Positions 46,327 to 64,000 of a stretch of 64,000 bases of DNA are shown here, one piece after another; positions within the stretch are counted from its first letter, which is position 1; every line of letters begins with the position of its first letter. Below the pieces are notes generated by a model. The model saw only the letters and a program-made list of their open reading frames with translations, searched no databases and was not told where the DNA came from. Source of the stretch: Marivita sp. S6314 (GTDB lineage: Bacteria; Pseudomonadota; Alphaproteobacteria; Rhodobacterales; Rhodobacteraceae); contig NZ_JALKAO010000003.1 in the NCBI RefSeq assembly GCF_023015985.1, positions 1 through 64,000 on the forward strand, written 5' to 3'. The translations under genes were made by a program, and so were the position numbers.

Positions 46327-46370
46327 CGCCTTCGACCTGCACGGCTTGAAGCACAGGCCCGGAGGCCCCC

Positions 46371-48305: not shown

Positions 48306-48336
48306 TATATTTGAACAGTAAGTTCATATATGAACA
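48306..48336. promoter_or_regulatory. three-half-site operator GAAC-N5-GTTC-N6-GAAC (copy 1)
   Basis: TATATTTGAACAGTA, then AGTTCATATATGAACA. The last part contains the perfect 14-bp palindrome GTTCATATATGAAC. Ends 19 bp before the alpha/beta hydrolase ATG. The same array occurs at 55810-55840 with identical spacing. Likely bound by the IclR protein encoded at 54938. The rest of the 221-bp gap from SulP holds a TTGACA (48278-48283) and nothing else clear. Confidence 0.75.
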
Positions 48337-48355: not shown

Positions 48356-49228
48356 ATGTCTCAGCAAGACGCCACATTTGACCCCGGCCTGCTTCGGCAT
48401 TTCGAAGTAGGAGGGATCCATGCGCTGGAGCGGCCCGGCACTGGTCCGGCGGTCGTTTTTCTGCATGGCATCGGGTCGAACTCGGACTCGTTTCAAGCGC
48501 TGTTCAACGCCATTCCACTAGGGGCGCGCCTGATTGCGTGGAATGCGCCGGGGTATCTTTCGTCGTCCGCTCTGGACGTTGCGTTCCCAACGGCCAGAGA
48601 TTATGCGCGCGCGCTGACGGGTTTTCTCGACGCTTTGGGCTTGGACCAAGTGCATCTCGTGGGGCATTCCCTCGGCACGCTCATTGCCGCAGAGTTCGCC
48701 TTGCATGCGCCAACGCGGATTGCGTCGCTCACGCTCGCCGCCGCAGCCCAAGGGTATGAAATCCCTGCAGGTCAGCCGATGCCCGAGAAGGTGGCGCGCA
48801 GGCTGGATGACCTCAAGGCCCTTGGTATCGCCGCCTTTGCGGAAACGCGCGCGCCGGGTCTGGTTTTCGAGCCCGAGAACAACCCACACGTCGTTGCGCA
48901 GGTGCGCGCCGGGATGGAGCGGATCAATCCCGAAGGTTACGCGCAAGCGGTGCGGATGCTGGCGTCCGGGAGCCTCTCGGCCATGGTGGCCCGCCTTCAG
49001 GTAAAGCCTGCATTCATACTGGGTGCCGAAGACCGGATCACGCCGATGACCCAAACGCAGGCCGCCATGGATGCGTGGGCCAAGACGCATGGCGCCGTTC
49101 CCAAATGCCTGACCATCCCCGGTGCAGGGCACGCGGTTTACATCCAGGCACCCGAAGCCTTTGCGGCGGCTCTGCAACGCCTGATCCCGGCTCTGAACGC
49201 CGAAGCACAACCATTTGTCAAAGGATAG
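48356..49228 (+). CDS. alpha/beta hydrolase (possible C-C or ester hydrolase)
   Basis: A 290-residue alpha/beta hydrolase with oxyanion HG in VFLHGIGSNSDSF, nucleophile Ser105 in VGHSLGT, Asp226 in GAEDRITP and His259 in PGAGHAVYI. The size and cap match meta-cleavage product hydrolases and deformylases. First gene of a six-gene unit ending with the aldehyde dehydrogenase; the extradiol dioxygenase starts 4 bp later. An earlier TTG start would lie inside the operator and was rejected. No strong ribosome site is visible before the ATG. Confidence 0.88.
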   Translation: MSQQDATFDPGLLRHFEVGGIHALERPGTGPAVVFLHGIGSNSDSFQALFNAIPLGARLIAWNAPGYLSSSALDVAFPTARDYARALTGFLDALGLDQVHLVGHSLGTLIAAEFALHAPTRIASLTLAAAAQGYEIPAGQPMPEKVARRLDDLKALGIAAFAETRAPGLVFEPENNPHVVAQVRAGMERINPEGYAQAVRMLASGSLSAMVARLQVKPAFILGAEDRITPMTQTQAAMDAWAKTHGAVPKCLTIPGAGHAVYIQAPEAFAAALQRLIPALNAEAQPFVKG

Positions 49229-49232
49229 TGCC

Positions 49233-50141
49233 ATGACAGAAGAACTGAGAATGGGACACTTACGCGGCATCGTTATGCGCGCGCCGGACATGACGCAGAC
49301 GGCGGAATTTTACACTGATCTTTGGGGGCTGAATATCGCGCATGAGGAAGACGGCATCGTCTACCTGCGCGGCACGGGGCCGGAGCCGTTTATCTATGGC
49401 CTGAAAGACGACAGCACCTACGGCATCGAATACATCCATTTCGGCCAGCCAGATCGCGAAACCATCGACGCCTTCTATAAGCAGGTTAAAGAACGCGGCG
49501 CGACAGTGCTTGGTGCGCCTGCGCCCATTGAGGGGCCGTTTGGCGGCTATGGATTTGAGATCCTTGACCCTGACAACCGCCGCCTTCGTGTGACAGCAGA
49601 TCTGAAGATGCGCGAGCCGGAGGATGTGTATTCCTACCCGCGCAAGATCAGCCATGTGGTCCTGAACACGGTCGATATGGAAGGGCTGCAGGCCTGGTAC
49701 GAGCGTGTCCTTGGGTTCCGCACAAGCGATTACTCCGCCGATCAGATGGTGTTCATGCGCTGCAGCACCGACCACCATTCCATCGCGCTGGTGCGCAACA
49801 AATACCCGGCGATCAACCATGTCGCCTTTGAGATGCCGGGCATTGACGACTACATGCGCGGGATCGGTCGGATGAAGCAAAAGGGGCAGGTGCCCAGCTG
49901 GGGTCCGGGTCGCCATGGTCCGGGGAACAACCCGTTTGCCTATTTCGTGTCGCCCTCTGGCTACGTGATCGAATTCGTCGCGGAATTGCAGCAGATCGAC
50001 GAGGCCACACACGAACCGAAAGTCTGGTCGCGCACCGACCCCGAGGCGATGGACCAGTGGATGACTGCTGGCCCGCCCACACCTGCGCAACGCGCGGTCA
50101 TGGCAGGACGTCCAGACCCCGGCTTCCCGGTCGAGGAGTGA
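49233..50141 (+). CDS. VOC-fold extradiol-type dioxygenase
   Basis: A 302-residue two-domain type I extradiol dioxygenase-like protein. The second domain carries the 2-His-1-carboxylate triad: His141 (KISHVVLNT), His196 (INHVAFEM) and Glu247 (GYVIEFVAE). His181/182 (DHHSIAL) and Tyr237 (FAYFVSPSG) are near the expected active site. Family members cleave catechol-like rings next to the diol. The exact substrate is unknown; the C-terminal PEAMDQWMTAGPP extension recalls homoprotocatechuate/2,3-dihydroxybiphenyl-like relatives only weakly. In an operon with a hydrolase, SDR, TPP enzyme and ALDH. Confidence 0.9.
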   Translation: MTEELRMGHLRGIVMRAPDMTQTAEFYTDLWGLNIAHEEDGIVYLRGTGPEPFIYGLKDDSTYGIEYIHFGQPDRETIDAFYKQVKERGATVLGAPAPIEGPFGGYGFEILDPDNRRLRVTADLKMREPEDVYSYPRKISHVVLNTVDMEGLQAWYERVLGFRTSDYSADQMVFMRCSTDHHSIALVRNKYPAINHVAFEMPGIDDYMRGIGRMKQKGQVPSWGPGRHGPGNNPFAYFVSPSGYVIEFVAELQQIDEATHEPKVWSRTDPEAMDQWMTAGPPTPAQRAVMAGRPDPGFPVEE

Positions 50142-50144
50142 TCA

Positions 50145-50936
50145 GTGGACCTGGGGCTTGAAAACAAAACCGTAGTTGTCACTGGCGGGTCGTCCGGCAT
50201 CGGGCTTGCAACGGTACGGGCTTGTCTTGAAGACGGTGCCAATGTCGCGCTTTGCGCCCGTGGGGCTGACCGGCTTCAAGAGGTTCACAAGACGCTTGCG
50301 GACGCGTACGGCGAGGCCCGCGTGTTCGCCAGTGCCTTCTCGGTTCTGGACAAGGATGCGGTTGATGCCTTTGCCATAGATGTCGCTGAGCGCTTTGGCG
50401 GCTGCGACGCGCTGGTGACGAACGCCGGTCAAGGCCGCGTGTCCACGTTTGCCGATACGTCCGACGCGGATTGGCGTGAAGAGCTTGAGCTGAAGTTCTT
50501 CAGCCAGTTGCACCCGATCCGCGCTTTTGAGGCGATGCTGCGGAAAAGCGACAGCGGCGCAATTGCCGCCGTGAACTCTCTGCTCGCCTATCAGCCGGAA
50601 CCGCACATGGTCTGTACCTCTGCCGCCCGTGCGGGTGTTCAGAACCTGCTGAAATCCCTTGCAACCGAGCTGGCGCCCGACATCCGGGTCAATTCCATTC
50701 TGCTGGGGCTGGTCGACAGCAACCAATGGCAAAAACGCTTTGAAGCGCGGGACGACCAAGAGCAAAGCCGCGACGATTGGTATGCCGCGCTGGCCCGCAA
50801 GAAGAACATCCCGTTGGGCCGTCTTGGCCGCGCGGAAGAAGCCGCGCGTGCGCTGGTTTTCCTGGCATCCCCCGCCGCGAGTTACATCACCGGCGCAAGG
50901 CTGGAAATCTCCGGCGGCGTTTCGAGGTTCTCATAA
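50145..50936 (+). CDS. SDR-fold protein with substituted catalytic Tyr and Lys
   Basis: A 263-residue SDR with intact cofactor motif VVVTGGSSGIG (residues ~10-20), NAG at 93-95, and C-terminal SYITGARLEISGG. Ser145 is present (AAVNSLLAY). At the positions of the catalytic Tyr (+13) and Lys (+17) it has Thr158 and Arg162 (TSAARAG instead of YSAAKAG). Either it uses a different mechanism or it is not a classical oxidoreductase. GTG start 4 bp after the dioxygenase stop. Confidence 0.87.
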   Translation: MDLGLENKTVVVTGGSSGIGLATVRACLEDGANVALCARGADRLQEVHKTLADAYGEARVFASAFSVLDKDAVDAFAIDVAERFGGCDALVTNAGQGRVSTFADTSDADWREELELKFFSQLHPIRAFEAMLRKSDSGAIAAVNSLLAYQPEPHMVCTSAARAGVQNLLKSLATELAPDIRVNSILLGLVDSNQWQKRFEARDDQEQSRDDWYAALARKKNIPLGRLGRAEEAARALVFLASPAASYITGARLEISGGVSRFS

Positions 50937-50964
50937 AATGCGCGATTTGAAGGAACATGATCTC

Positions 50965-52617
50965 ATGACACAGACCGTCGGACACCAGATCGCGGAAGGG
51001 CTCGCGGATGCGGGCATCACGGTGATTTTCGGGGTGATCTCGATTCACAACATGCCAATCCTGGATGCGGTGGCCGAACAGGGGCGCATCCGCTTTATCC
51101 CGGCGCGTGGCGAAGCAGGCGCGATGAACATGGCAGACGCGTTTTCGCGGGTGTCGGGTGAAGTTGGCGTCGCGCTGACATCAACGGGCACAGCCGCCGG
51201 CAATGCGGCAGGCGGGCAGGCCGAGGCGTTGACCGCGGGCAGTCGTGTGCTGCACATCACCACGCAGGTGGACCGTCAGTTCATGGACCGGGATCGCGCC
51301 GCGATCCACGATGTCCCAAAACAGCCCGAGATGCTGCGTGGTGTGTCCAAGGCCGTGTTCCGTGTCTGGGACGAACAGAACGCCATGGGTGCGTTGGCAG
51401 CCGCGTTAAGAGCAGCGGTTACGCCTCCGGCCGGGCCTGTGAGCCTTGAGGTGCCTGTCGATGTTCAGCGCGTACCGGCTGTCGGCAGCGCGCGCCTCGC
51501 GCCGATCGTGCCAGCGCGTCCTGCACCTGATCCCGACGCGCTCGACAGGCTGGCGGAGCAGATCCGTGGGGCCAAACGCCCCATGCTCTGGCTCGGCGGA
51601 GGCGCGCGGGGCGCACAAGCCGAGGCGACAGCGCTTGCGCAGCTTGGCATCGGGATCGTCACATCCACACAAGGCCGCGCAACCGTGGATGAAGGCCATC
51701 CCGGGACACTCGGCGCGTTCAACATGACGCCCGAGGCCGAAGCGGTCTACAAGACCAGCGATCTGATGATCGTGGTCGGCTCGCGCCTGCGCGGCAACGA
51801 GACCAAGAACAACAAGATGGCGCTACCGTCACCGCTGTTTCAGATCGACGCGGAACCGACGCAGGCAGGGCGCAATTATCCCGTGGATGGTTTCATCTGC
51901 GCCGATGCGCAATTGGCGCTCAAAGGCCTTTTGGATCGCTTGCCGGACAGTCTTGATATTGACCCGAACTTTCAACACGACATCGCCGTAGCGCGCGCGA
52001 AATCCGAAGGCGCGCTGCGCGGGCGATTGGGGCCGTACCAGATGGTCGCCGATCACCTTCTGGCGCGGGTTCCCGCCGGAAAGCACCCGTGGGTGCGCGA
52101 TGTCACGATTTCCAACTCGACCTTTGGCAACCGTTATGTGCAGGTGGCTGCGCCGAACCTGGGCGTGCACGCTCTGGGTGGCGGGATTGGGCAAGGCATC
52201 GCCATGGCCATCGGTGCCGCCGCCGGGTCGCCCGACGCGCGCACCATCGCGCTGGTCGGGGACGGCGGTGCACAGCTTGGCATTGCCGAACTGATCACGG
52301 CGGTCGATGAAAACCTGCCGATCACCTACGTTCTGATGAACGATTCTGCGTATGGCGTGATTGAGAACATCCAGGATGCGCAATATGATGGGCGTCGGCA
52401 TTATTCCAAACTGAAGACACCGAATTTCGGGCTGCTGTGCCAATCCATCGACATGCCGCACCACAAGGTCACGGATATCGAGGCGTTTGCAGACACGTTT
52501 GATCAGACGTTGACCACCACAGGCCCCGCCGTCGTCGAAGTGGACATGACGGCGATCGGGCCCTTTGCTGAAGCCTTCGCCGGTCCACCCGCCGGTGCCG
52601 CTGGGCAAAAGACATGA
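50965..52617 (+). CDS. thiamine-diphosphate-dependent enzyme (acetolactate synthase/decarboxylase-like)
   Basis: A 550-residue ThDP enzyme with three domains. Pyr domain: FGVISIHNMPILDAVAEQ, with catalytic Glu50 in ARGEAGAMNMADAF. Central domain: PMLWLGGGARGAQAEATAL. PP domain: GDGGAQLGIAELITAVDENL at ~432, ending in MNDSAYG. Relatives include acetolactate synthase, benzoylformate decarboxylase and glyoxylate carboligase. Here a 2-oxo-acid decarboxylase or carboligase acting on a ring-cleavage product is likely. The start may also be at 50938. Its stop overlaps the next gene by ATGA. Confidence 0.88.
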   Translation: MTQTVGHQIAEGLADAGITVIFGVISIHNMPILDAVAEQGRIRFIPARGEAGAMNMADAFSRVSGEVGVALTSTGTAAGNAAGGQAEALTAGSRVLHITTQVDRQFMDRDRAAIHDVPKQPEMLRGVSKAVFRVWDEQNAMGALAAALRAAVTPPAGPVSLEVPVDVQRVPAVGSARLAPIVPARPAPDPDALDRLAEQIRGAKRPMLWLGGGARGAQAEATALAQLGIGIVTSTQGRATVDEGHPGTLGAFNMTPEAEAVYKTSDLMIVVGSRLRGNETKNNKMALPSPLFQIDAEPTQAGRNYPVDGFICADAQLALKGLLDRLPDSLDIDPNFQHDIAVARAKSEGALRGRLGPYQMVADHLLARVPAGKHPWVRDVTISNSTFGNRYVQVAAPNLGVHALGGGIGQGIAMAIGAAAGSPDARTIALVGDGGAQLGIAELITAVDENLPITYVLMNDSAYGVIENIQDAQYDGRRHYSKLKTPNFGLLCQSIDMPHHKVTDIEAFADTFDQTLTTTGPAVVEVDMTAIGPFAEAFAGPPAGAAGQKT

Positions 52618-53432
52618 CGCAGCCCGTCGGTATCATCGGATTCGGTGCAATCGCGCAGGACCTTGTCGCCGTGCTCATGGGTCAGTCCGCACAGCCGCGT
52701 ATCTCTGTCCTGGTCCGGGATGGCCGCGAAACCGCCGCGCGTGCGGCTTTGGGTGCGGTGGGTCTACCGGACGAAGCGGTGATCACCAGTGATCTGTCGG
52801 CATTCCTGGCAACCCGTCCCACGGTTGTTGCGGAATGCGCCGGGCATGCTGCGGTTGGCGCTTATGGCACGCAGGTGCTGGAGGCAGGAAGCGATCTGGT
52901 GGTGGCGTCGGTTGGCGCGCTGGCGGATGCCGCGCTGTTTGACCGTCTGAAAAGTGTTGCACAGGCGCAGGCACGGCAGGTCGTGGTGCCTTCGGGTGCA
53001 ATTGGGGGCATTGATGTGCTCGCCGCTGCACACCTGTCCGACCTGACCTCTGTGCGCTACACCGGTCGCAAGCCACCGGGCGCGTGGGCGGGAACCCCCG
53101 CAGAGGCCAAACATGACCTGTCACGCGTGGACACGCCGACGATCATCTTCGAAGGCTCCGCACGGGCCGCCGCCGAAGCCTACCCCAAGAATGCGAATGT
53201 TGCGGCGACGCTGGCCTTGGCCGGGCTGGGCATGGACCACACGCAAGTGACATTGGTGGCGGATCCGACCACAGCGGACAACATCCACGAATTCACCCTC
53301 GCATCATCCGCTGTCGAAGCATCCGTTCAGCTTGTGGGCAAACCGTCGCCGCGCAATCCGAAAACATCGCAGACCACGGCGCTGAGCATCGCGCGTGCGG
53401 TGCTTAACCGCAGTGCCGCAATCGTCATCTGA
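52614..53432 (+). CDS. aspartate dehydrogenase-like protein
   Basis: A 272-residue Rossmann protein beginning VGIIGFGAIAQDLVAVLMGQ. It has the aspartate-dehydrogenase signatures YPKNANVAATLALAGLGMD and ADNIHEFTL, where the His is catalytic in NadX-type enzymes, plus VPSGAIGGIDVLAAA. NadX oxidises aspartate to iminoaspartate, but no nad genes are here; in this operon an amino-acid or imine substrate linked to the ring-cleavage pathway is more likely. ATGA overlap with the ThDP gene. Confidence 0.85.
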   Translation: MTQPVGIIGFGAIAQDLVAVLMGQSAQPRISVLVRDGRETAARAALGAVGLPDEAVITSDLSAFLATRPTVVAECAGHAAVGAYGTQVLEAGSDLVVASVGALADAALFDRLKSVAQAQARQVVVPSGAIGGIDVLAAAHLSDLTSVRYTGRKPPGAWAGTPAEAKHDLSRVDTPTIIFEGSARAAAEAYPKNANVAATLALAGLGMDHTQVTLVADPTTADNIHEFTLASSAVEASVQLVGKPSPRNPKTSQTTALSIARAVLNRSAAIVI

Positions 53433-53439
53433 GGACCTT

Positions 53440-54933
53440 ATGGATCAGCAATTTCCGAACGATCAGATCTTTGTCGCCGGTGAATGGCAAAAGGGGCGCG
53501 GTGCGGAAATCCGCTCTGACTTCGCGGCTGAGGGGACAGAAAACACGGTCATCTCTGGGGCGTCCGCTGACGATGTGGATGCCGCAATCGAACGCGCGAA
53601 AGCCGCACAAGCTCACGCAGGCTGGAGCGGGTTGAAGCCGCATGAACGTGCCAGCTACCTCTACCGCATTTCCGACGGCATCACCGCCAATATTGAGCGG
53701 ATCGCCTGGGTGCAAAGCCGCGACACGTCGAAGACGCTGACCGAAACACGGGCCCTTGCCACGTCCGCCGCCGCGACGTTCCGGTATTTCGGCGCGGTTC
53801 TGGAAACCTCTGACGATCTGCTGACGGCACCGCGCGGGGCGTACCAGACGCTTTCCGTCTACGAACCGCTGGGTGTTGTTGCCGCGATCACGCCGTGGAA
53901 TTCGCCGATTGCGTCTGATGCACAAAAGGTGGCGCCTGCGCTTGCGGCTGGCAATGCCGTAGTTCTGAAACCTGCCAGCTGGTCGCCCTTGGTCAGTCTG
54001 GAACTGGCCCGTATCGTCGAAGAAGCAGGCCTGCCGCGCGGGCTGTTTTCGGTTTTGCCCGGATCAGGACGAGAGGTCGGTAACCGGCTGGTCGAGCATC
54101 CCGACATTGCAAAGGTGTCGTTCACCGGGGGCACGTCGACCGGACGGCACCTTGCGCTGGCGGCGGCCAGGAAATTGATGCCGGTTTCGCTGGAACTGGG
54201 CGGCAAGTCCCCGACAATCGTGTTCGAGGATTGCGACGAAGACCTTGCCATTGCGGGGATCCTGTTCGGCATCTTCTCGTCATCGGGCCAAAGCTGCATC
54301 GCTGGATCGCGATTGTTTGTACAGCGGTCGATCTATGATCGTTTTGTCGCGCGACTGGTAGAGGCGACGAACCGTCTGCGCGTCGGGCACCCGTTCGATG
54401 CCGCAACACAGGTGTCGTCGCTTGTGCACCCGGATCACCGGGAATCGGTCGAAGACTATGTGCGCCTTGGTCTGGACGAAGGCGCAGAGCTTTTGACAGG
54501 CGGCACGCGCCCCGACGCGCCCGAGCTTACCAATGGCGCATTTTACGCGCCGACGATCCTGGCAGGTGTGTCCAATACGGCCCGGATCTGCCGCGAAGAG
54601 GTGTTCGGACCGGTTCTGGTCGTGATGCCGTTTGACGACGAAGCGGATGTCATCGCGCAAGGCAACGACAATGACTACGGGCTCGCCTGCGGGATCTGGA
54701 CGCGGGATTACCCAAAAGCCATGCGCGTCGGCCATGCGATTCAGGCGGGAACGGTCTGGATCAACACGTACAAACAGTTTTCCATCTCGACGCCCTTCGG
54801 CGGCGATGGCGACAGCGGCATAGGCCGGGAAAAGGGCCGAAGCGGGTTGCGGGCCTATCAACGACAAAAGTCGTTCTATACTGATCTGAGCGGCCAACCA
54901 CACCCTTGGGCGCGTTGGCCCGCAGATGACTGA
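53440..54933 (+). CDS. NAD(P)-dependent aldehyde dehydrogenase
   Basis: A 497-residue ALDH with Asn154 (TPWNSP), Glu252 in LELGGKSP and nucleophile Cys286 in SSGQSCIAGSRL, then EEVFGPVLVVMPFDDE and FGGDGDSGIGREKG. It resembles betaine/semialdehyde (2-hydroxymuconate or aminomuconate type) dehydrogenases. A role oxidising the semialdehyde formed by the extradiol dioxygenase is inferred. Last gene of the unit; only 4 bp from the convergent IclR stop, with no hairpin between. Confidence 0.93.
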   Translation: MDQQFPNDQIFVAGEWQKGRGAEIRSDFAAEGTENTVISGASADDVDAAIERAKAAQAHAGWSGLKPHERASYLYRISDGITANIERIAWVQSRDTSKTLTETRALATSAAATFRYFGAVLETSDDLLTAPRGAYQTLSVYEPLGVVAAITPWNSPIASDAQKVAPALAAGNAVVLKPASWSPLVSLELARIVEEAGLPRGLFSVLPGSGREVGNRLVEHPDIAKVSFTGGTSTGRHLALAAARKLMPVSLELGGKSPTIVFEDCDEDLAIAGILFGIFSSSGQSCIAGSRLFVQRSIYDRFVARLVEATNRLRVGHPFDAATQVSSLVHPDHRESVEDYVRLGLDEGAELLTGGTRPDAPELTNGAFYAPTILAGVSNTARICREEVFGPVLVVMPFDDEADVIAQGNDNDYGLACGIWTRDYPKAMRVGHAIQAGTVWINTYKQFSISTPFGGDGDSGIGREKGRSGLRAYQRQKSFYTDLSGQPHPWARWPADD

Positions 54934-54937
54934 CGCG

Positions 54938-55735
54938 TTACGCTCTGTTCGGTGCCCCCAGAAGCGCCGAGGCTTCGGCGGCGGCTTTGCAGACGGCCTC
55001 GATGATGGCCGTGCTGCTGTCGGGGTCGGCAAAACGGTTGTCCGGCCCGGACACGTTCAGTGCGCCAACGGCGCGACCAACATGATCAAAGACGGCCGCG
55101 CCACACGATCCGATGCCTGCCTCGAAATTTCCGACACTCCAGGCGTAACCCAATGCGCGGTCAGCGTCGGCCTGCGCGATGACGCCCTCAATCGTCGTCG
55201 GTGTCTTCGGCGTCACCGCTTCGAGCGTCGCGCCCGCAAGCAGCGCTGTGATCTCTTCTGGTGCCATCTGCGCCAGGATTGCGCGCCCGATCGAAGAGGC
55301 ATGCGCGCGCAGGCGTGCCCCGGCATGAATGTTGCTGACAAGATGCGAATTCGGGGCCACGCGGCTGAGATAGACAATGTCGGTCCCGTCCAGAATCCCG
55401 AAATGCGCCGACATGGAGGTCGCTTCGCACAGCCGCTGAAGCACGGGTTGGCAGGTCTGGACAAGATCACGCCCGGCGATTGCCTGCGCCCCCAGCGTCA
55501 CAAGGCCAACACCCAATCGGTAGCCGCGCCCGTCGCCCAGCTCTTCGATCAGACGCTCTGCAAGAAGCGTGTGAATAAGGCGGATCAGCGTTGTGCGATT
55601 GATACTCAGATCGCTGGCGGCCGTGCTCAGGTTTCGGCATGTGTTGTTGTCACCGATGTAGCGCAACAGTTTGATGGCGCGTTCAACGGGCGGGACGGCG
55701 TAGGCGGTGGTGCTGCTATCTTCTTTTACATTCAT
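54938..55735 (-). CDS. IclR family regulator of the aromatic island
   Basis: A 265-residue regulator: winged HTH (VPPVERAIKLLRYIGDNNTC, LSINRTTLIRLIHTLLAERL) followed by an IclR effector domain (TSMSAHFGILDGTDIVYLSR, RLRAHASSIGRAILAQMAPE, ALGYAWSVGNFEAGIGSCGA). Start MNVKEDSS was chosen because an upstream extension crosses the divergent promoter. Located between the two forward units whose promoters share the GAAC/GTTC array, making it the prime candidate to bind them. Confidence 0.92.
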   Translation of the reverse strand: MNVKEDSSTTAYAVPPVERAIKLLRYIGDNNTCRNLSTAASDLSINRTTLIRLIHTLLAERLIEELGDGRGYRLGVGLVTLGAQAIAGRDLVQTCQPVLQRLCEATSMSAHFGILDGTDIVYLSRVAPNSHLVSNIHAGARLRAHASSIGRAILAQMAPEEITALLAGATLEAVTPKTPTTIEGVIAQADADRALGYAWSVGNFEAGIGSCGAAVFDHVGRAVGALNVSGPDNRFADPDSSTAIIEAVCKAAAEASALLGAPNRA

Positions 55736-55786
55736 GTCCTTACCCTGCTTTTGCAGTTGTGGCGCCGGCGCCTTCTGACAAAATCG

Positions 55787-55815
55787 TTGACCGATTTCTC
55801 GCGTCAGCTTATATT
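55787..55815 (+). promoter_or_regulatory. promoter of the FAD monooxygenase operon
   Basis: TTGACC (55787-55792), a 17-bp spacer and TATATT (55810-55815). The -10 box is the first part of the operator array, so a bound IclR protein would sit on and just downstream of the -10. Confidence 0.65.
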
Positions 55816-55840
55816 TGAACAGTATGTTCAATATAGAACA
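55810..55840. promoter_or_regulatory. three-half-site operator GAAC-N5-GTTC-N6-GAAC (copy 2)
   Basis: TATATTTGAACAGTA (identical to copy 1 for 15 bp), then TGTTCAATATAGAACA. Half-site spacings match copy 1 exactly. It ends 21 bp before the monooxygenase GTG. Confidence 0.78.
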
Positions 55841-55861
55841 TAAGACAAGGGGAAAACTCTC

Positions 55862-56992: not shown

Positions 56993-57013
56993 GACGTCTA
57001 ACAGGGAGAAACC

Positions 57014-57982
57014 ATGAAACATCTATTCAAAAGCGCACTTGTCGCCGCAACTCTGGCCGCTGCACCAGCCTTCGCGGACGCGGTCAATATCAACGCGGTG
57101 ACGCTGGCACCAAAGCCGGTTTACATCAACGGACCTTTCAAGAGTTTCGTCGAGGAAGTGAACGAAAAATTCGCTGGCAAGGTTGAGATCAACTGGCGCG
57201 GTGGCCCCGAGGTCATGCCGCCGTTCAAACAGGCCGAAGGTGTGCGCAACGGCGCAATGGACATGACCTACACCAGCCCGAGCTACTATCAGGGCCTTGT
57301 CCCGACATCGGGCACGATGAACCTGTCGTTCAAAACCTACGAAGAAATCGCTGCCACCGACTACCACGAGCGCATGACCGAGCTGCACGCCGAGAAAGAC
57401 CTTGTGTATCTTGGCGAAATTCCGGCGACCGAGCTGAACTTCTTCATTTACATGGGCGAAGAGGTGGCCAGCCTTGATGATCTCAAAGGCAAGCGCATCC
57501 GCGTTTTCCCGACCCTGCTTCCGCTGGCGCAAGCGCTTGGCGCAGAGCCGATTGTTCTGCCGATGGGCGAGATCTACACCGCCATGGAGCGCGGCGCGAT
57601 CGACGGCTTCATGCAAGGCCCGCTTGGTCAGGCCGAACAATTCGGTGATCTCGTGAAAACGGTTGTCGCACCGGGCGTTTACCGTGCGGGCTTCCCGGTT
57701 CTGGTGAATCCCGATACCTGGGCCGAGATCCCAGCGGATGTTCAGGCCGAACTGACCACGTTCCTGCGCGAAGATTTCGCGCCCCGCATGGATACGATCT
57801 GGGCCCAGCCGATTGCCGACAGCCAGGCGCAGATGCGCGAAAAGGGCTGGACGTTCCTTGAACTGTCCGGCGACGACGCCGCTGCCTATGAAAAAATGGC
57901 GATGGACGCGGCCTGGGCCGTCACAGCCGAAACAGCAGGCGCAGACATCGCCGCTGAATTGCGGGCCATGCTGGACCGCTAA
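57014..57982 (+). CDS. TRAP transporter substrate-binding protein (DctP type)
   Basis: A 322-residue periplasmic binding protein with signal peptide (LVAATLAAAPAFA). Features: YINGPFKSFVEEVNEKFAGK, GGPEVMPPFKQAEGVRNGAM, GKRIRVFPTLLPLAQALGAE (with the conserved carboxylate-binding Arg) and MERGAIDGFMQGPLGQAEQF. An aromatic or sulfated acid is a plausible ligand given the neighbours. GGGAGAA precedes the ATG. A hairpin follows the gene. Confidence 0.92.
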   Translation: MKHLFKSALVAATLAAAPAFADAVNINAVTLAPKPVYINGPFKSFVEEVNEKFAGKVEINWRGGPEVMPPFKQAEGVRNGAMDMTYTSPSYYQGLVPTSGTMNLSFKTYEEIAATDYHERMTELHAEKDLVYLGEIPATELNFFIYMGEEVASLDDLKGKRIRVFPTLLPLAQALGAEPIVLPMGEIYTAMERGAIDGFMQGPLGQAEQFGDLVKTVVAPGVYRAGFPVLVNPDTWAEIPADVQAELTTFLREDFAPRMDTIWAQPIADSQAQMREKGWTFLELSGDDAAAYEKMAMDAAWAVTAETAGADIAAELRAMLDR

Positions 57983-58000
57983 AAAAAGGGGTCTCCCTGT

Positions 58001-58026
58001 CGGTGCCGGGCTCTGTCCCGGTGCCG
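58001..58026 (+). terminator. stem-loop between dctP-type and dctQ-type genes
   Basis: A 10-bp stem CGGTGCCGGG / CCCGGTGCCG with two G-T wobbles and a CTCTGT loop, followed by AATTTT, 18 bp after the binding-protein stop and 25 bp before dctQ. Same placement as the siaP-siaQ hairpin. Confidence 0.6.
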
Positions 58027-58051
58027 AATTTTCTCCAGCCAAGGAAACACG

Positions 58052-58552
58052 ATGACGCGGGCAGTTCATCCGGTATGGGCGTTTTTTCAACGTATTAACC
58101 TGATTTGCGCAATCGTTGGTGCGATCCTTCTGTTTGGAATCGCGGCCATCGTGTGCTTCGAGGTTCTGGGCCGCGCCTTGGGGGCGTCGTCCCGCCTCTG
58201 GGTGATCGAAGCCAGCGAATACGCATTGCTGTTCATCACGTTTCTGGGCGCACCTTACCTGCTGCAGCTCAAGCACCATGTCGTCATGGATCTGCTGGTC
58301 AACGGCCTGACCGGTGTCCAGAAACGGATATCGCAATTCGTCAACGCGCTGATCGGTTTGCTGGTGTGCCTGGTGCTGACCTATGTCGGCGTGCAGATCG
58401 TGCTGGACCAGCTCGATCTGGGCACGCGTGAGGTCACGGTAATGCGCCCCTTAAGCTGGTGGATCACCTCTGCGATGCCGCTTGGAACGGGGCTGATGGC
58501 CATCCAGTTCCTGCATGCGTTGATCCTGAGCTATACCGGCGAGGACGTTTGA
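58052..58552 (+). CDS. TRAP transporter small permease (DctQ type)
   Basis: A 166-residue four-helix protein (INLICAIVGAILLFGIAAIV, LWVIEASEYALLFITFLGAP, FVNALIGLLVCLVLTYVGVQ, SWWITSAMPLGTGLMAIQFL). The V-I-E-A-S-E-Y motif in helix 2 is typical. Two base pairs separate it from the large permease. Confidence 0.92.
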   Translation: MTRAVHPVWAFFQRINLICAIVGAILLFGIAAIVCFEVLGRALGASSRLWVIEASEYALLFITFLGAPYLLQLKHHVVMDLLVNGLTGVQKRISQFVNALIGLLVCLVLTYVGVQIVLDQLDLGTREVTVMRPLSWWITSAMPLGTGLMAIQFLHALILSYTGEDV

Positions 58553-58554
58553 CC

Positions 58555-59871
58555 ATGGAGTGGTACTTTACCCTACTCGTGATCCTTGGCCCGCTGTTCA
58601 TGCTGATGCTGATGGGCTTGCCCGTGGCCTTTGCCTTTTTCGCGGTGAACCTTGTTGGGGCCTACATCCTGATGGGCGGCATTGCCGGGATCGAGCAACT
58701 GGTCCTGAACACGGTCGACAGCATCAGCAGCTTCACGCTGATCCCAATCGCGCTTTTCATGATCATGGGCGAGGCGATGTTCCAGTCGCGGATCGCCGTT
58801 GATCTGATGGACACGCTCGACAAATGGTTCGGAAAACTTCGGGGACGGCTTGCCCTGATGGCTGTTGGGGGCGGTGTTCTGTTCTCGACGCTGACGGGCA
58901 ACTCGATGGGGTCCATTGCGCTCTTGGGGTCTTCCCTGACGCCAGAAATGGAAAAGCGCGGCTACAAGAAAGAAATGTCGCTTGGCCCCATTCTCGGTTC
59001 GTCTGGCCTTGCGATCATGATCCCGCCCTCGTCGCTGGCCGTTGTCCTTGGTGTTATCGCCGAGATTTCAATTGGACAGATCCTGATCGGGATCATCGTG
59101 CCGGGCCTCCTGATGGCGGTGCTTTACGTGGTCTACATCATCGGGCGCTGCACAATCAGCCCCGAGCTTGCGCCTGCCTTTGATGTCCAACCGGTGCCGC
59201 TGTCAGAGAAGATCAGCTCCACCATTGTGAATATTGTCCCGCTGACACTCGTTGTCTTCTGCGTTGTCGGCGTGATCTTCCTCGGTATCGCGACGCCAAG
59301 CGAGGCGGCGGCCACCGGGGCGTTTGCCACGTTGTTCCTTGCCCTGATCAAACGGCGTCTGACGCCGCAAGTCTTCGGACGAACGATGCTGGCAAGCTCG
59401 AACATCTCGGTCATGGTCCTGCTGATCGTTTCGGGTGCCGTCACCTTTTCCCAGCTTCTCGCGTTCACCGGCGCAACCTATGACATGGTGGATGCGGTCC
59501 TGAGCCTTGATGTGTCGCCATCCACCATTGTTTTCCTCATGGTCATGACCGTTGTGCTGATGGGTATGTTCATGGGTCCGTTGTCGATCATGCTGATCAC
59601 GCTGCCGATCTTCGTGCCCGTGGTCATTCAGCTTGGGTTCGATCCGATCTGGTTCGCCGCGCTGTTTCTGGTGGCCATTGAAACCGGCGCAACCTCCCCG
59701 CCGTTCGGCGCTGCCTTGTTCGTGATGAAAGCGGTGGCCCCTAGGGGGACGACGATGGGCGAAATCTACAAGGCTGCCGTGCCGTTTATCATCCTTGATC
59801 TGGCGGCGATCCTGATCCTGTTCTTCTTTCCTGTTCTGGTGACCGGGCCGGTTGGCCTGATGTTCGATTAG
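58555..59871 (+). CDS. TRAP transporter large permease (DctM type)
   Basis: A 438-residue permease with about 12 hydrophobic segments and family motifs STLTGNSMGSIALLGSSLTP, GSSGLAIMIPPSSLAVVLGV, IFLGIATPSEAAATGAFATL, GATSPPFGAALFVMKAVAP. Start MEWYFTL directly after the dctQ stop. Works with the preceding two genes. Confidence 0.94.
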   Translation: MEWYFTLLVILGPLFMLMLMGLPVAFAFFAVNLVGAYILMGGIAGIEQLVLNTVDSISSFTLIPIALFMIMGEAMFQSRIAVDLMDTLDKWFGKLRGRLALMAVGGGVLFSTLTGNSMGSIALLGSSLTPEMEKRGYKKEMSLGPILGSSGLAIMIPPSSLAVVLGVIAEISIGQILIGIIVPGLLMAVLYVVYIIGRCTISPELAPAFDVQPVPLSEKISSTIVNIVPLTLVVFCVVGVIFLGIATPSEAAATGAFATLFLALIKRRLTPQVFGRTMLASSNISVMVLLIVSGAVTFSQLLAFTGATYDMVDAVLSLDVSPSTIVFLMVMTVVLMGMFMGPLSIMLITLPIFVPVVIQLGFDPIWFAALFLVAIETGATSPPFGAALFVMKAVAPRGTTMGEIYKAAVPFIILDLAAILILFFFPVLVTGPVGLMFD

Positions 59872-59878
59872 ACCAACA

Positions 59879-61447
59879 ATGAAAAAGCGCCCCAATTTCC
59901 TTGTCATCATGACCGACCAGCAGCGGGCGGATCATCTTGGCTGCTACGGGAACCCGATTGTTCAGACCCCGAACCTTGATGCGTTGGCGGCGCGCGGAAC
60001 CCGCTTTGATCGGTTCTACGTCGCCAACCCGATTTGCCAACCGAACCGAGCCGCGCTTGCGACGGGGCAGTTGACAACTGTCAACGGGTGCCGAAAAAAC
60101 GGCATCCCGGTTTCTTGTGACAGTACGACCTATGCGGACGTGCTGCGCGCTGCGGGCTATCGCACCGGGCTGGTGGGCAAGGCGCATTTCCAGAATGTGT
60201 CGCCGATCGAAGCCAAACCACCCGCGTTGCGCGGGACAGGCGATGCGCCCGAGCCGCCGTTTGACCGCGCACGGCGCCGTCAGCGCTCCGGCCCCGAGTA
60301 CGAACACGAGATCCGTTCAAACTGGATCAAGACCCCGGACCGGGACGTGCCGCGCCCGTATTACGGGTTTGATGAGTTGGCGTTGTGCATCGGCCACGGC
60401 GATCAGGTGGAAGGGCATTATACAGGCTGGTTGCGAGACCGGCTAAACGGTGCGCCGGACCCGCGTGGACGCGACAATGCGGCAGATGACGGGTTTGGCA
60501 AAACGCCCCAGGTCTGGCGCACGGCACTGCCGGAAGAGCTTTATCCGACAAGCTTTGTTGGGGAACAGGCCTGCGCCTTTCTTGAACAGACCGACGACCG
60601 CCCGTTTCTGCTGCTGGCGTCATTTCCCGACCCGCACCATCCGTTCACGCCGCCCGGTCGCTATTTTGACATGTACGACCCGGCACAGATCCCGTTGCCA
60701 GAAAGCTTTGCGTACAAGACCGGGGACCGGAACGACCTGCCCGCACATCTGAAACGCGTCTACCAGTTCGGCGACGAAAAGCCGGACGCCTACTGGCCGT
60801 TCCACGCAGAGGCCGACACGATCCGCCGAATGATCGCGCTGAACTACGGGGCGATCACCATGGTTGATGATTGGGTCGGACGCATTCTGCAGGTGCTTGA
60901 GCGAACCGGGCTTTCCGAAAACACGCACGTGATCTTCATGTCCGACCACGGCGACTACATGGGCGATCACGGGACAACCCTGAAGCATGGGGTACACAGC
61001 CACGGCCTGATCCGCGTGCCGATGATCTGGGCGGATCCGACGCGCAAGACCGGCGTATCGAGTGAGATACAGGGCAGCGCCATTGACTTCGCCCCGACGC
61101 TTCTGGCCCGCGCGGGGCTGCAAGAACCCGTTGGCATGCAGGGGCGGGATTTGCTTGCGGAGGACGCCGAAAACCTGCCGGTGCTGATCGAAGATGCGGG
61201 GCTGTCCTTTGCCGATCCTGACGGCAAGACGGCGAGTCGAACGCTGGTGCACGAAGGCTGGCGCATGACGGTCTTCGAAGGGTCAGAACTGGGTGAACTA
61301 TACGATCTTGAAAAAGACCCGTCGGAGTTGTCCAACCTCTGGAGCGATGGGTCTGCAGCACAACGCAGGGTGCGGATGCTTTATCTGCTCGCAGACCGGC
61401 AGATGGCGCTTCAGGACGCGTCTTTGGTCCCGACCCATCAGGCCTGA
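59879..61447 (+). CDS. sulfatase (CxPxR type, C-Q-P-N-R motif)
   Basis: A 522-residue type I sulfatase: N-terminal metal motif FLVIMTDQQRADHLGCYGN, formylglycine site C53-Q-P-N-R with a downstream TGQ, GKAHF, FPDPHHPFTPPGRYFDMY and FMSDHGDYMGDHGTTLKHG. Asn at the +3 position replaces the common Ser/Ala, but the C-x-P-x-R core needed for formylglycine formation is intact. No signal peptide, so likely cytosolic, acting on a sulfate ester imported by the TRAP system 7 bp upstream. It resembles the 44698 enzyme only in motifs. Confidence 0.9.
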   Translation: MKKRPNFLVIMTDQQRADHLGCYGNPIVQTPNLDALAARGTRFDRFYVANPICQPNRAALATGQLTTVNGCRKNGIPVSCDSTTYADVLRAAGYRTGLVGKAHFQNVSPIEAKPPALRGTGDAPEPPFDRARRRQRSGPEYEHEIRSNWIKTPDRDVPRPYYGFDELALCIGHGDQVEGHYTGWLRDRLNGAPDPRGRDNAADDGFGKTPQVWRTALPEELYPTSFVGEQACAFLEQTDDRPFLLLASFPDPHHPFTPPGRYFDMYDPAQIPLPESFAYKTGDRNDLPAHLKRVYQFGDEKPDAYWPFHAEADTIRRMIALNYGAITMVDDWVGRILQVLERTGLSENTHVIFMSDHGDYMGDHGTTLKHGVHSHGLIRVPMIWADPTRKTGVSSEIQGSAIDFAPTLLARAGLQEPVGMQGRDLLAEDAENLPVLIEDAGLSFADPDGKTASRTLVHEGWRMTVFEGSELGELYDLEKDPSELSNLWSDGSAAQRRVRMLYLLADRQMALQDASLVPTHQA

Positions 61448-61974
61448 AGCGCGTCCCAATTGCTGCGCCTGCCATGTAGGTCGCAGCCGTTTGTTGTGAC
61501 GGTCCCAAGCTGTGCTCCATCTGCCCAGAACCCGCCAAGAAACTCGCTGTTTGAAAGGTTTGTTTCGCTGGCAATCTGTGCGTTCTCCAGCGTCAGATTT
61601 GCCATGATGAGGGCGTTCAATAGCGAGATCCTTTGCGCCCGAACGCGCTCAAGGTCCAGCACGCCGCGCACCTGCACCTCGTCAAGGCAAAGCGTGTCGG
61701 CTGTCAGCCCTTCGGCCCGGCAATCAATCATGAAACGCGCGCCTGTCAGGTCGAGCGTTCCGTCAATTGTTGCATTCATCAGCCACGCAAGACCGAGAAA
61801 CGTTGTGCCCCGCGCGCTGACGTTCCCCTTGAACGCTGCGCCGCTGAGATCAAAACCGCGCAGCACCATGCCGTCGAGAACCAAAGGCCCGTCGATCACT
61901 GCAGCGCGGCCATCGAAATGCTCTCCGTGGTGCCACGGTTTTTGCAGCTCTGCGATGAGCGCGTCTGGCGTCAT
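61438..61974 (-). CDS. pentapeptide-repeat-like right-handed beta-helix protein
   Basis: A 178-residue protein of tandem five-residue A(D/N)LxX-like units (LDGMVLRGFDLSGAAFKGNV, then ANLTLENAQIASETNLSNSE), predicted to fold as a right-handed beta-helix. Function unknown. It overlaps the convergent sulfatase by 10 bp and begins within 4 bp of the upstream SDR stop, so it belongs to the minus-strand Rieske-SDR unit. A structural or scaffolding role is possible. Confidence 0.7.
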   Translation of the reverse strand: MTPDALIAELQKPWHHGEHFDGRAAVIDGPLVLDGMVLRGFDLSGAAFKGNVSARGTTFLGLAWLMNATIDGTLDLTGARFMIDCRAEGLTADTLCLDEVQVRGVLDLERVRAQRISLLNALIMANLTLENAQIASETNLSNSEFLGGFWADGAQLGTVTTNGCDLHGRRSNWDALQA

Positions 61975-62699
61975 GTGAACACGAAGCCCCGGTTGACCGG
62001 CAACACTTGTCCGGTCAGCGTCAGCGCGGCCTCGCTCAGCAGAAAGGCAACGGTGCCTGCAATATCTTCGGGAGGCTGCGCGCCGGGCACGGCTCGACCG
62101 TCCTCGTACTGCGCATGGCGCGCGCGTGGGACGTAGTCTGTGCTTTCGGTCGTCAGGATACCTGGCGCAATCGCGGTGACCCCGACCCCGTCAGGCCCCA
62201 ACTCGCGCGCCAGTGACCGGGTCATGGAAATGACCGCACCCTTGGAGGCGGTGTAGGAAATCAGGTTGGGCGCGCCCCAAAGCGCAGTGTCCGACGCGAC
62301 GTTGACGATCCGCCCGCTGCCCGATTGCCTGAGCAGCGCGGCGGTGGCTTTGATCATCAACCACGTGCCGCGCACGTTCACTTCCATCACGCGGTCCCAT
62401 GTGTCGATGTCGACATCTTCGAACCCGATGCCGCCAATGCCGGTGGCGATTGCACCATTGTTGACAAGACCGTGCAGCGGGCCGCCCACGGCGTCCGCCA
62501 GCGCGGTGATGCTCCCGGGGTCGCGCAAATCGACGGGGTGAAACCGCGCGCCCAGCTTTTCAGCCACGGCTCGGCCCTCGTCCTCCAGGATATCTGCAAG
62601 GATCAGGTCCGCACCGGCGTCGGCCAGATGGGTCGCCAGAGTCGCGCCCAATCCGCGCGCCGCGCCGGTGACCAGAATGCGCCGTGCCTGCAGGCTCAT
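61971..62699 (-). CDS. short-chain dehydrogenase/reductase (classical SDR)
   Basis: A 242-residue SDR with TGAARGLGATLA, NNGA, the catalytic S-Y-K set (NVASDTALWGAPNLISYTASK) and the C-terminal ALTLTGQVLPVNRGF. Unlike the SDR at 50145 it keeps Tyr and Lys. 4-bp overlaps with both neighbours put it in one unit with the Rieske oxygenase; a dihydrodiol or alcohol dehydrogenase role is plausible. Confidence 0.92.
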   Translation of the reverse strand: MSLQARRILVTGAARGLGATLATHLADAGADLILADILEDEGRAVAEKLGARFHPVDLRDPGSITALADAVGGPLHGLVNNGAIATGIGGIGFEDVDIDTWDRVMEVNVRGTWLMIKATAALLRQSGSGRIVNVASDTALWGAPNLISYTASKGAVISMTRSLARELGPDGVGVTAIAPGILTTESTDYVPRARHAQYEDGRAVPGAQPPEDIAGTVAFLLSEAALTLTGQVLPVNRGFVFT

Positions 62700-63739
62700 T
62701 CAGCCGCAACCTTCGCAGCATCCTCGGCCGCGATCTGTTCCTTGGCAGCGCGGTGCAGCGCCCGGCGCAGATGGGCGACGCCGATGTCGTGCTGATAGAG
62801 CATTTCGCGGGTCCGCGCGTCGTCGGGCATGCCTTCCAGCATCACGCGGTCCTGCTCAAGTACGTTCCAGTGCCGCTCTTCCAGACACGCGCGATAGAGA
62901 AAGCGCCAACTGTCGCGGTCAAATCCTTCGACCTTGCGCATCCGCCAGAAGAAGACCTTGCATTTCTGCGGTCCGATCGGGGTCACGTAGCCAAGGATCC
63001 GCATGTGCCCACCGGGTCCGGCGGCAGGCGGGTAGGGGATGTCGAGGAAACAGAACATGCCCCCATCGGCTACCGAAAATTCCGTCCAGTCGAAATTCTC
63101 GCCCACCTGGCCCACGCGGCTGACCCGGAACCCGTCTTCGCGGTTGTCGAGTTCCAGCAGGTCCTGCTTGGAGCCGAAGGCCAGTGTAAAGCTTTCCGCG
63201 TGCAGGTAGCAGCCGTGCATCGGGTCGGCGAGGTTGTCCAGCGCATAGCGATAGTTGACGCCCCACTCGGCGGTGCACAGGAAACCGGTCCAGGCCGGGT
63301 CCGACAGTTCGACCGGCAAGGGCAAGTCGTGCGGTTCGTCGTCCTCGTTGTCAGACACGAAGACGAACACGGCGTCGCTGGCCTCTTGCACCTTGTAAGA
63401 GCGCAGCGCCTTGCGGCCTTCCATCGGGCAGTCCGGCATGGCCGGAACACGTTGGACCGTGCCGGTCCCGTCAACGATCACGCCGTGGTAGCGGCAGCCG
63501 ATATTGCCGTCATGTATCTCGCCATAGCTCAGCGGCGCGCCACGATGCGGGCAGAAGTCCTCGATGCAGCGGATATCCCCGGTGCCATCGCGCCAAAGCA
63601 CCAGTTTGCGACCCAGAGCAACCGCGCCGTAAGGCCGGTCACTTTTGATCTCGACAGATTTCGCGACCGGGTACCATTGGTTCCGCAGGCCTTCATTAAC
63701 CCGCTCTTCAACCCGGGTTTTCATATCGGCGGTCATCAT
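62696..63739 (-). CDS. Rieske non-heme iron oxygenase, alpha subunit
   Basis: A 347-residue aromatic ring-hydroxylating or demethylating oxygenase. Rieske cluster ligands C63/H65 (CPHRGAPLSYG) and C82/H85 (CRYHG); mononuclear iron motif N169-x2-D172-x2-H175-x4-H180 (DNLADPMHGCYLH). The size fits the vanillate O-demethylase/phthalate oxygenase class. No reductase or ferredoxin gene is visible to the right edge. GGAGG precedes the first ATG. A G-run/C-run hairpin sits upstream at the neighbouring gene's stop. Confidence 0.93.
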   Translation of the reverse strand: MMTADMKTRVEERVNEGLRNQWYPVAKSVEIKSDRPYGAVALGRKLVLWRDGTGDIRCIEDFCPHRGAPLSYGEIHDGNIGCRYHGVIVDGTGTVQRVPAMPDCPMEGRKALRSYKVQEASDAVFVFVSDNEDDEPHDLPLPVELSDPAWTGFLCTAEWGVNYRYALDNLADPMHGCYLHAESFTLAFGSKQDLLELDNREDGFRVSRVGQVGENFDWTEFSVADGGMFCFLDIPYPPAAGPGGHMRILGYVTPIGPQKCKVFFWRMRKVEGFDRDSWRFLYRACLEERHWNVLEQDRVMLEGMPDDARTREMLYQHDIGVAHLRRALHRAAKEQIAAEDAAKVAAE

Positions 63740-63764
63740 CTTTCAAATCCTCCCTGATCGGCCC

Positions 63765-63779
63765 GGGGGGTTACCCCCC
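63765..63779. terminator. G6-TTA-C6 hairpin at the stop of the partial gene
   Basis: Perfect GGGGGG / CCCCCC pairing with TTA loop, where TTA is the reverse-strand stop codon of the partial gene at the right edge. It separates that gene from the Rieske gene (25 bp further). Confidence 0.5.
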
Positions 63780-64000
63780 GAAGCCGTTTTCCGCATATGC
63801 CGCATCCAGATCGGCGTTAAGGGCTGCAAGTTCCTGCGCAAGGCTGTCGGCTGTCCAATCGGCCTTACCAGAACTCGGGCACTCGACACCTTTTTGTGCA
63901 AGCGCCGCAGCCAAAGCATCCGGCCCCGATACGCCGGACGCGTAAAGCTCCATCAACGCGTCCGCCAGCGCCTCTTCCTGCGCGGTCAACGCCCGGCCCC
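63771..64000 (-). CDS. small helical protein, recombinase-like HTH domain type (partial, 5' end outside window)
   Basis: At least 72 residues with the frame still open to the right edge; the apparent start is an internal TTG. The visible part is helical (LADALMELYASGVSGPDALA, ADWTADSLAQELAALNADLD, ending AAYAENGFGG) and recalls small 'recombinase-like helix-turn-helix' proteins encoded beside Rieske oxygenases. No catalytic motif is visible. It may be an accessory or regulatory subunit of the Rieske system. Confidence 0.55.
   Translation of the reverse strand, partial: GRALTAQEEALADALMELYASGVSGPDALAAALAQKGVECPSSGKADWTADSLAQELAALNADLDAAYAENGFGG

Follow-up and report, generated by a model that had tools for sequence, protein, structure and literature searches.

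An IclR-linked gene cluster for aromatic catabolism in Marivita sp. S6314, with kynurenate-type quinoline carboxylates as candidate substrates

Which aromatic compound is taken up and broken down by a gene set that joins a Rieske oxygenase, a flavin hydroxylase, an extradiol dioxygenase, a thiamine diphosphate (ThDP) enzyme, an L-aspartate dehydrogenase-like protein (AspDH), a transporter and a sulfatase? This question is raised by the right-hand part of a 64000 nt stretch of DNA from Marivita sp. S6314 (contig NZ_JALKAO010000003.1, positions 1 to 64000; hereafter the window). We conclude with high confidence that the cluster holds a regulon for aromatic catabolism, probably under IclR control. 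Its substrate would be an anionic aromatic compound, and on a still tentative reading the likeliest are 4-hydroxyquinoline-2-carboxylates, namely kynurenate and xanthurenate, together with their sulfate esters in this marine form.

Gene content, distribution and operator

The list of open reading frames (ORFs) and domain scans of the window revealed three transcription units with all frames intact, spanning positions 48356–63739. Unit 1 on the forward strand encodes, in this order, an alpha/beta hydrolase (48356–49228), a type I extradiol dioxygenase of the VOC family (49233–50141), a non-classical short-chain dehydrogenase/reductase (SDR1; 50145–50936), the ThDP enzyme (50965–52617), AspDH (52614–53432) and an aldehyde dehydrogenase (ALDH; 53440–54933) that is BADH/HpaE-like in the domain scans. 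The gaps between these genes are short or absent, the ThDP enzyme and AspDH genes overlapping by four bases. The gene of an IclR-family regulator follows on the reverse strand (54938 to about 55735, its start placed from homologues), and unit 2 diverges from it on the forward strand with a FAD monooxygenase (FMO; 55862–56992), a tripartite ATP-independent periplasmic (TRAP) transporter and an S1-type sulfatase (59879–61447). The transporter consists of the solute-binding protein DctP (57014–57982), a small permease (58052–58552) and a large permease (58549–59871), both permeases being named after homologues so annotated in locus L076. Unit 3 occupies the reverse strand at 61438–63739 and encodes the alpha subunit of a Rieske oxygenase (62696–63739), a classical SDR (SDR2; 61971–62699) and a pentapeptide-repeat protein (61438–61974). 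All genes named in the original prediction are there, their frames unbroken and their domains those expected. Specific NCBIfam models scored above their cut-offs just for SDR1 (PRK07062) and the ThDP enzyme (PRK07064), neither of them with a pathway, and the closest named locus, from a Maritimibacter metagenome-assembled genome (MAG), reaches 85% in the ThDP enzyme.

A gene-cluster search across genomes, the check proposed with the original prediction, was carried out with the ThDP enzyme as query. One scan of species genomes yielded 65 loci and a plasmid search gave more, eight of which were read with their annotation; four places lacked the cluster and were dropped, which left 69 loci for the comparison. 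Outside this set are L001–L010 (short or without the cluster), L073–L075 (weak partial matches), L083 (Variovorax, without the cluster), L084–L112 and L116–L120; the near-copies L064 and L065 were both counted. Many of the 69 loci are incomplete, and 43 have full flanks, all 43 selected through the ThDP enzyme. With identity limits set for each gene, SDR1 was present in 68 of the 69 loci, AspDH in 64, the hydrolase in 62, the VOC dioxygenase in 60 and ALDH in 52, followed by a cupin and IclR (48 each), the Rieske oxygenase (40), SDR2 (39) and FMO (37). For transport and desulfation we found an NMT1-type ABC transporter in 23 loci, the TRAP transporter in 22 and the sulfatase in 12. Among the full-flank loci, 39 contain the VOC and 35 the ALDH gene. 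The 69 loci span alpha-, beta- and gammaproteobacteria, some with gene losses, and their hosts include Rhodobacterales, Rhizobiales, Roseomonas-type bacteria, Thioglobus-type gammaproteobacteria, Vibrio nigripulchritudo, Caballeronia, Acinetobacter baumannii, Klebsiella pneumoniae and Novosphingobium. Because the block recurs in 69 loci, we do not regard it as a chance grouping; seen at first in one genome, the cluster is widespread and not peculiar to that genome. The ThDP enzyme was detected above cut-off in 15 of 398 genomes sampled evenly from the phylum. Four Thioglobus-type loci (L045, L049, L050 and L052) come from very small genomes and carry the whole cluster together with TRAP transporter, sulfatase and the operator described below.

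The cluster runs on past the window, where the same genome encodes a two-domain cupin (C32:64119–65063) that the original prediction, confined to the window, had overlooked. A cupin stands at the cluster in all 11 cluster genomes examined and lies inside the available flanking DNA of 35 of the 43 full-flank loci. These cupins are single- or two-domain proteins of one family, 29–34% identical to each other, and show only weak matches in the PDB.

The region upstream of unit 1 and the intergenic region between IclR and FMO have one sequence in common, TATATTTGAACAGTAWGTTCA. This operator has the form GAAC-N5-GTTC-N6-GAAC and lies on the forward strand at 48313–48335, 20 bases upstream of the hydrolase operon, and at 55817–55839 in the divergent IclR/FMO region, adjoining a promoter-like TTGACC-N17-TATATT. 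The window contains two matches against a chance mean of 0.00, and a 17-base form, searched in the whole genome with at most two mismatches, occurs at those two places only (reversed control, 0). We counted 74 exact sites in 46 of the 69 loci (1.27 Mb) and none for seven control patterns; 69 of the sites are outside aligned genes, and the other 5 fall where the IclR alignment has its upstream end. The sites precede the hydrolase/cupin operon, the ABC or TRAP genes or the Rieske gene, or lie between IclR and FMO. IclR relatives of at least 40% identity accompany 42 of the 46 loci with the operator but 6 of the 23 loci without it, counts that are not corrected for kinship and include some incomplete loci, and the cluster IclR protein is the likely operator-binding protein. 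No operator site was found in the Caballeronia, Klebsiella and Novosphingobium clusters, whose IclR proteins are 27–30% identical, and neither a site nor an IclR gene in the Acinetobacter cluster.

Since the same operator precedes both main operons, units 1 and 2, including the TRAP transporter and the sulfatase, are, as judged from the sequence, one regulon. The membership of transporter and sulfatase is borne out by the Thioglobus-type loci L050 and L052, where a separate operator lies 46 bases ahead of the TRAP–sulfatase operon. The single regulon originally proposed is supported for these two of the three units; the Rieske unit in the window, like the downstream locus L098, has no operator site, and it adjoins a second IclR gene (65154–65894) followed by a purine block. 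The window IclR resembles PcaR/PcaU/PobR-type regulators in that TIGR02431 is its best-scoring model; the score of 137.8 bits is under the cut-off of 284.75 and places it outside that subfamily. An inverted repeat with a third, direct half-site is the operator style of PcaU and PobR; the half-site GAAC of the cluster presumably differs from theirs.

Catalytic residues and entry enzymes

We then compared the residues expected in each active site across the aligned relatives. The VOC dioxygenase has a full extradiol site, with H142, H197, E248, H183 and Y238 conserved in 56 sequences (numbering counts one residue before Met), and is a probable catechol ring-cleavage enzyme; its active-site spacing is HPCD-like, and its nearest structure, 3b59, is uncharacterised. 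Glu52 of the ThDP enzyme, a probable 2-oxo-acid decarboxylase, is kept in 78 sequences, and the catalytic triad S105, D226 and H259 of the hydrolase in at least 95% of 65 sequences. SDR1 keeps Ser145 and has Thr158 and Arg162 in place of the classical Tyr and Lys (Thr/Arg in at least 95% of 81 aligned sequences), and it lacks a Ser-Tyr-Lys triad; its original description as a non-classical SDR was correct. A glutathione S-transferase gene, possibly for a ring-cleavage-product isomerase, follows the TRAP genes in L012 (12103–12867, ahead of the sulfatase) and L076 (20318–21085).

Two enzymes could produce the catechol. To see how they are distributed we searched 25 of 26 genomes or records, all but L016 (for W01 the plasmid record alone), with a limit of 57% for FMO orthologues that was chosen once it was visible that matches below it reached no more than 42%. 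A Rieske orthologue was found in 21 and an FMO orthologue (at least 57%) in 18 of the 25: 14 have both, 7 Rieske only, 4 FMO only and none neither. Celeribacter halophilus (L041) is an example with Rieske only, Sedimentitalea nanhaiensis (L014) and Limimaricola cinnabarinus (L028) are examples with FMO only. FMO is encoded away from the cluster in G381, G255 and G387, and the Rieske oxygenase in G460. Within the flanks of the 43 full-flank loci, where a Rieske gene may sit beyond the flank, the numbers are 16 with Rieske only, 13 with FMO only, 14 with both and none with neither. At least one entry enzyme in 25 of 25 is what would be expected if a single substrate came in Ar-H and Ar-OH forms that are both turned into the same catechol, and by sequence the Rieske dioxygenase and FMO look like alternative entries and not successive steps. 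The Rieske/SDR unit, first described as adjacent, does adjoin the other genes, but it is no chance neighbour: most genomes have it in the same cluster (21 of 25 for the Rieske gene). The pair at 61971–63739 has its conserved residues, with Y149 and K153, the classical SDR residues, kept in 48 sequences of SDR2, a probable cis-dihydrodiol dehydrogenase. The best solved relative of FMO is NicC, the 6-hydroxynicotinate 3-monooxygenase of the nicotinate pathway (5eow, 284.5 bits), but where NicC has its active-site His (Gln by substitution in chain 8uiq), the window FMO carries Asn46, and Asn also stands there in at least 95% of 39 aligned relatives.

In many clusters the Rieske gene has a neighbour that encodes a ferredoxin, a ferredoxin reductase, a flavodoxin or an FprA-like reductase; no such electron-transfer partner was recognised in the cluster of the window. 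In 15 loci (families assigned by eye) an FprA-like reductase, a flavodoxin and a pentapeptide protein stand beside the Rieske cluster (e.g. L081, 13983–16296), as if flavodoxin replaced ferredoxin. A small conserved HTH_62 'recombinase-like' protein of about 100 aa is encoded upstream of Rieske or ABC genes in L077 (4692–5021) and other loci.

The sulfatase carries CQPNR at positions 53–57, in agreement with the CxPxR motif, C53 and R57 being present in at least 95% of 17 sequences, and has no signal peptide evident by eye. TRAP transporter and sulfatase lie side by side in 8 of the 25 genomes, two of them Thioglobus-type. The sulfatase is not tied to FMO, since it is present in Thioglobus-type clusters without FMO, and the sulfate need not occupy the position attacked by FMO, because both Thioglobus-type genomes with the TRAP–sulfatase pair are without it.

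The nitrogen-bearing ring and the candidate substrates

Whether the ring carries nitrogen depends on the nature of AspDH. The window protein has both PF03447 and PF01958, with N193 and H225 in at least 95% of 74 sequences. The AspDH of the Klebsiella cluster (L079; 254 aa, MKKVMLIGY to CRELA) agrees in length and both ends with KpnAspDH, those of the Cupriavidus-like locus L101 and of L102 (MLHVSM to HAVSI) have the ends of ReuAspDH from Ralstonia eutropha, and the ends of the L103 protein, which closes with TAIAI, are nearly those of DelAspDH from Delftia. Identity between L079 and L101 is 45% (42% for the corresponding pair in PMC5554190) and between L103 and L101 69% (65% there for Delftia), so that the L103 protein is a near relative of DelAspDH and not that enzyme. 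According to that source, oxaloacetate or aspartate is the substrate of KpnAspDH and DelAspDH, other acids tested giving less than 6% activity; the enzymes assayed as L-aspartate dehydrogenases use pyruvate and 2-oxoglutarate at less than 4%, and ReuAspDH shows very little amination (PMC5554190). The window protein is 43–46% identical to the cluster proteins so likened. As cluster AspDHs match these assayed mesophilic enzymes by their ends, the cluster AspDH is probably a true L-aspartate dehydrogenase. This makes the N-bearing ring of the original prediction likelier.

Two dihydroxylation entries, an extradiol cleavage, a 2-oxo-acid decarboxylase with ALDH, an aspartate-specific dehydrogenase, a cupin and the lack of a recurrent hydratase or aldolase together are best fitted by a bicyclic N-heteroaromatic acid. 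Gene content, catalytic residues, conservation, operator, alternative entries and AspDH type are read from the sequence, and the substrate, order and product proposed here are inferred. The TRAP transporter would import the acid and the cytoplasmic sulfatase would free sulfate esters. The Rieske oxygenase and SDR2 would convert the unhydroxylated ring of kynurenate to 7,8-dihydroxykynurenate, and the NicC-like FMO would hydroxylate the phenol xanthurenate to the same catechol. The VOC dioxygenase could then open the carbocycle at 8,8a to leave a dihydroxypicolinate that carries a 2-oxo-acid side chain of four carbons; the double bond of this chain may be handled by SDR1 or another enzyme. Decarboxylation by the ThDP enzyme and oxidation of the aldehyde by ALDH would leave a propionate side chain, and cupin and hydrolase may open the pyridine ring. 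The part of the kynurenate ring made up of N1, C2 and its carboxyl, C3 and C4 would correspond to the aspartate skeleton, and this N-C(COOH)-C-C unit, as iminosuccinate or aspartate, could be interconverted by AspDH with oxaloacetate and ammonia. The 8-hydroxyl of xanthurenate fits entry by FMO, and sulfate esters fit the TRAP–sulfatase pair. A Rid-like ORF, by eye of the imine/enamine hydrolase family, in 5 of the 69 loci was counted for this proposal, and the aminophenols, hydroxynicotinate and salicylate originally suggested fit more poorly than quinoline-2-carboxylates. A further-reaching and slightly less likely reading is that the cluster supplies the missing genes of bacterial kynurenate and xanthurenate degradation, namely those for kynurenate dihydroxylase, the dihydrodiol dehydrogenase and 7,8-dihydroxykynurenate dioxygenase, with FMO as second entry and import and desulfation in the marine form; mesophilic L-aspartate dehydrogenases would then have their physiological role in acting on the aspartate/iminosuccinate unit from the pyridine ring.

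Several observations weigh against kynurenate-type substrates. Linkage to tryptophan genes was considered as proof and is weak. Tryptophan dioxygenase is commoner in cluster genomes, being encoded in 10 of 15 compared with 98 of 383 others (p 0.0013, with kinship and genome size uncontrolled), but just one genome has it near the cluster, about 10 kb upstream together with kynureninase and separated from it by unrelated genes. Kynureninase genes lie 6–14 kb off in three lineages, among them in the window's genome and in L045/L050, and are never in the operon. Kynureninase, moreover, leads to anthranilate and not to kynurenate. FMO could instead act on the pyridine ring, and SDR1 is without the catalytic pair usual in SDRs. 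The VOC gene is absent from 4 and the ALDH gene from 8 of the 43 full-flank loci, and assay data among the cluster enzymes cover AspDHs alone. The sulfatase also accompanies Rieske-only clusters of the Thioglobus type, and its maturation to formylglycine finds no support in the window's genome, where the formylglycine-generating enzyme (PF03781) was not found and no anaerobic maturase (TIGR03942) scored above cut-off. As a separate observation, the kynureninase-like gene of the window's genome (C32:78002–79198; L098 18002–19198) lies 13 kb past the cupin, with tryptophan dioxygenase on another contig (C34).

The alternative entries would also be explained by a benzoate/salicylate-type pair, and the rival that survives best is a monocyclic aromatic, either such a pair or an amino- or hydroxybenzoate, converted to a substituted catechol, cleaved by the VOC dioxygenase and degraded through an unusual lower pathway in which hydrolase, ALDH and ThDP decarboxylase act on a 2-hydroxymuconate-type product. 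A Rieske/SDR system with a salicylate-hydroxylase-type FMO is a classical alternative-entry pair, and the likeness of ALDH to HpaE and BADH and, at low similarity, of the hydrolase to BphD would suit it. Among the unassigned ORFs of the loci, however, no recurrent family was recognised by eye as 2-hydroxypentadienoate hydratase or aldolase of the standard meta-cleavage lower pathway (apart from the FprA-like and Rid-like ORFs, no unassigned family of at least 120 aa occurs in more than 4 loci), and an aspartate-specific dehydrogenase would have no evident role; we consider this rival doubtful. Another bicyclic N-heterocycle, such as an indole-2-carboxylate (a dihydroxyindole carboxylate, for instance) or a different quinoline, would follow the same enzyme logic: indole-2-carboxylates also hold an N-C(COOH)-C-C unit that could end as aspartate, cupin and VOC dioxygenase suggest two ring openings, and nothing in the data separates such rings from kynurenate. 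Rieske entry followed by such steps is not known for indole-2-carboxylates, and we regard this substrate class as unlikely. A nitrogen-free substrate with AspDH serving ammonia assimilation or redox balance during growth is likewise improbable: the assayed enzymes aminate faster than they deaminate (26.5 against 3.42 U/mg for KpnAspDH), but AspDH stands inside the same gene string in 64 of 69 loci, and the Km of KpnAspDH for ammonium is high (52.6 mM; PMC5554190) and assimilation therefore unlikely.

If the kynurenate-type assignment is true, bacteria of seawater, soil and animals, small Thioglobus-type genomes included, hold a recognisable sink for kynurenates, which are made from tryptophan and are signal compounds of hosts and plankton, and enzymes known merely as activities gain genes. 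Independently of the substrate, the conserved operator delimits a regulon whose members can be listed in any genome, and L-aspartate dehydrogenases so far studied as isolated biocatalysts gain a metabolic context. Rieske-only and FMO-only genomes allow a sharp growth test.

Neighbouring genes and known systems

Upstream of unit 1 lies a linked block at 41693–48134 on the forward strand, outside the demonstrated regulon and without the operator pattern. It encodes a TAXI-type TRAP transporter (41693–44615, named by eye), a second sulfatase (44698–46326) and a SulP-type anion transporter (46371–48134, family by eye), and is likewise placed in L026, from a Rhodobacteraceae MAG, with identities of 71% (TAXI), 78% (sulfatase) and 60% (SulP). 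The original prediction mentions neither this block nor the second IclR gene. Directly after the cluster, genes for guanine deaminase, a purine permease, XdhC and xanthine dehydrogenase (C32:66028–73835, in L098) form, by eye, a separate purine unit. In the Novosphingobium locus L080 (7957–9936) a TonB receptor and a GH3 glycosidase are encoded directly upstream of the ThDP gene, as if the substrate came from a glycoside.

In the open-access literature, with subscription papers and preprints outside its scope, this cluster is described in no paper that we found and bears no pathway name, genes for the breakdown of kynurenate did not turn up, and none of the characterised pathways matched it gene for gene. 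This agrees with the original statement that the set could not be placed in a named pathway. The operon for lumichrome (riboflavin) degradation likewise combines a Rieske enzyme, an extradiol dioxygenase and thiamin-dependent decarboxylation around an N-heterocycle, but its ThDP and Rieske enzymes have two subunits, it includes a P450, a xanthine-oxidase-type enzyme and amidases, and the available part of the report does not mention AspDH (PMC12746152); it was rejected as a match. Homarine, considered for the marine hosts, was set aside, the literature giving no gene cluster of this type. For Pseudomonas aeruginosa PA3501–PA3509, considered as a parallel, the literature yielded an essentiality table and nothing on function. 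In Acinetobacter baumannii, A1S_0956–0958 (AspDH, BADH and an acetolactate synthase-like protein), which are reported to be up 2.2- to 2.4-fold with mucin, resemble the gene string of L078 by description and not by sequence comparison.

The extradiol dioxygenase, 2-oxo-acid decarboxylase and ALDH types of kynurenate degradation are present together at 49233–54933, with the VOC and ThDP residues kept. The classical Pseudomonas route (KEGG) comprises Rieske dihydroxylation, dihydrodiol dehydrogenase, extradiol cleavage, a reduction, 2-oxo-acid decarboxylation and aldehyde oxidation. This kynurenate (quinoline) pathway of tryptophan-degrading Pseudomonas was reportedly worked out by Hayaishi and co-workers, with a tracer study in 1961. 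We know of no genes assigned to kynurenate dihydroxylase, the dihydrodiol dehydrogenase or 7,8-dihydroxykynurenate dioxygenase. The cluster and this pathway, which is known here by reaction types and not by genes, share the same succession of reaction types, and the cluster has in addition the FMO entry, the sulfatase, the cupin and AspDH.

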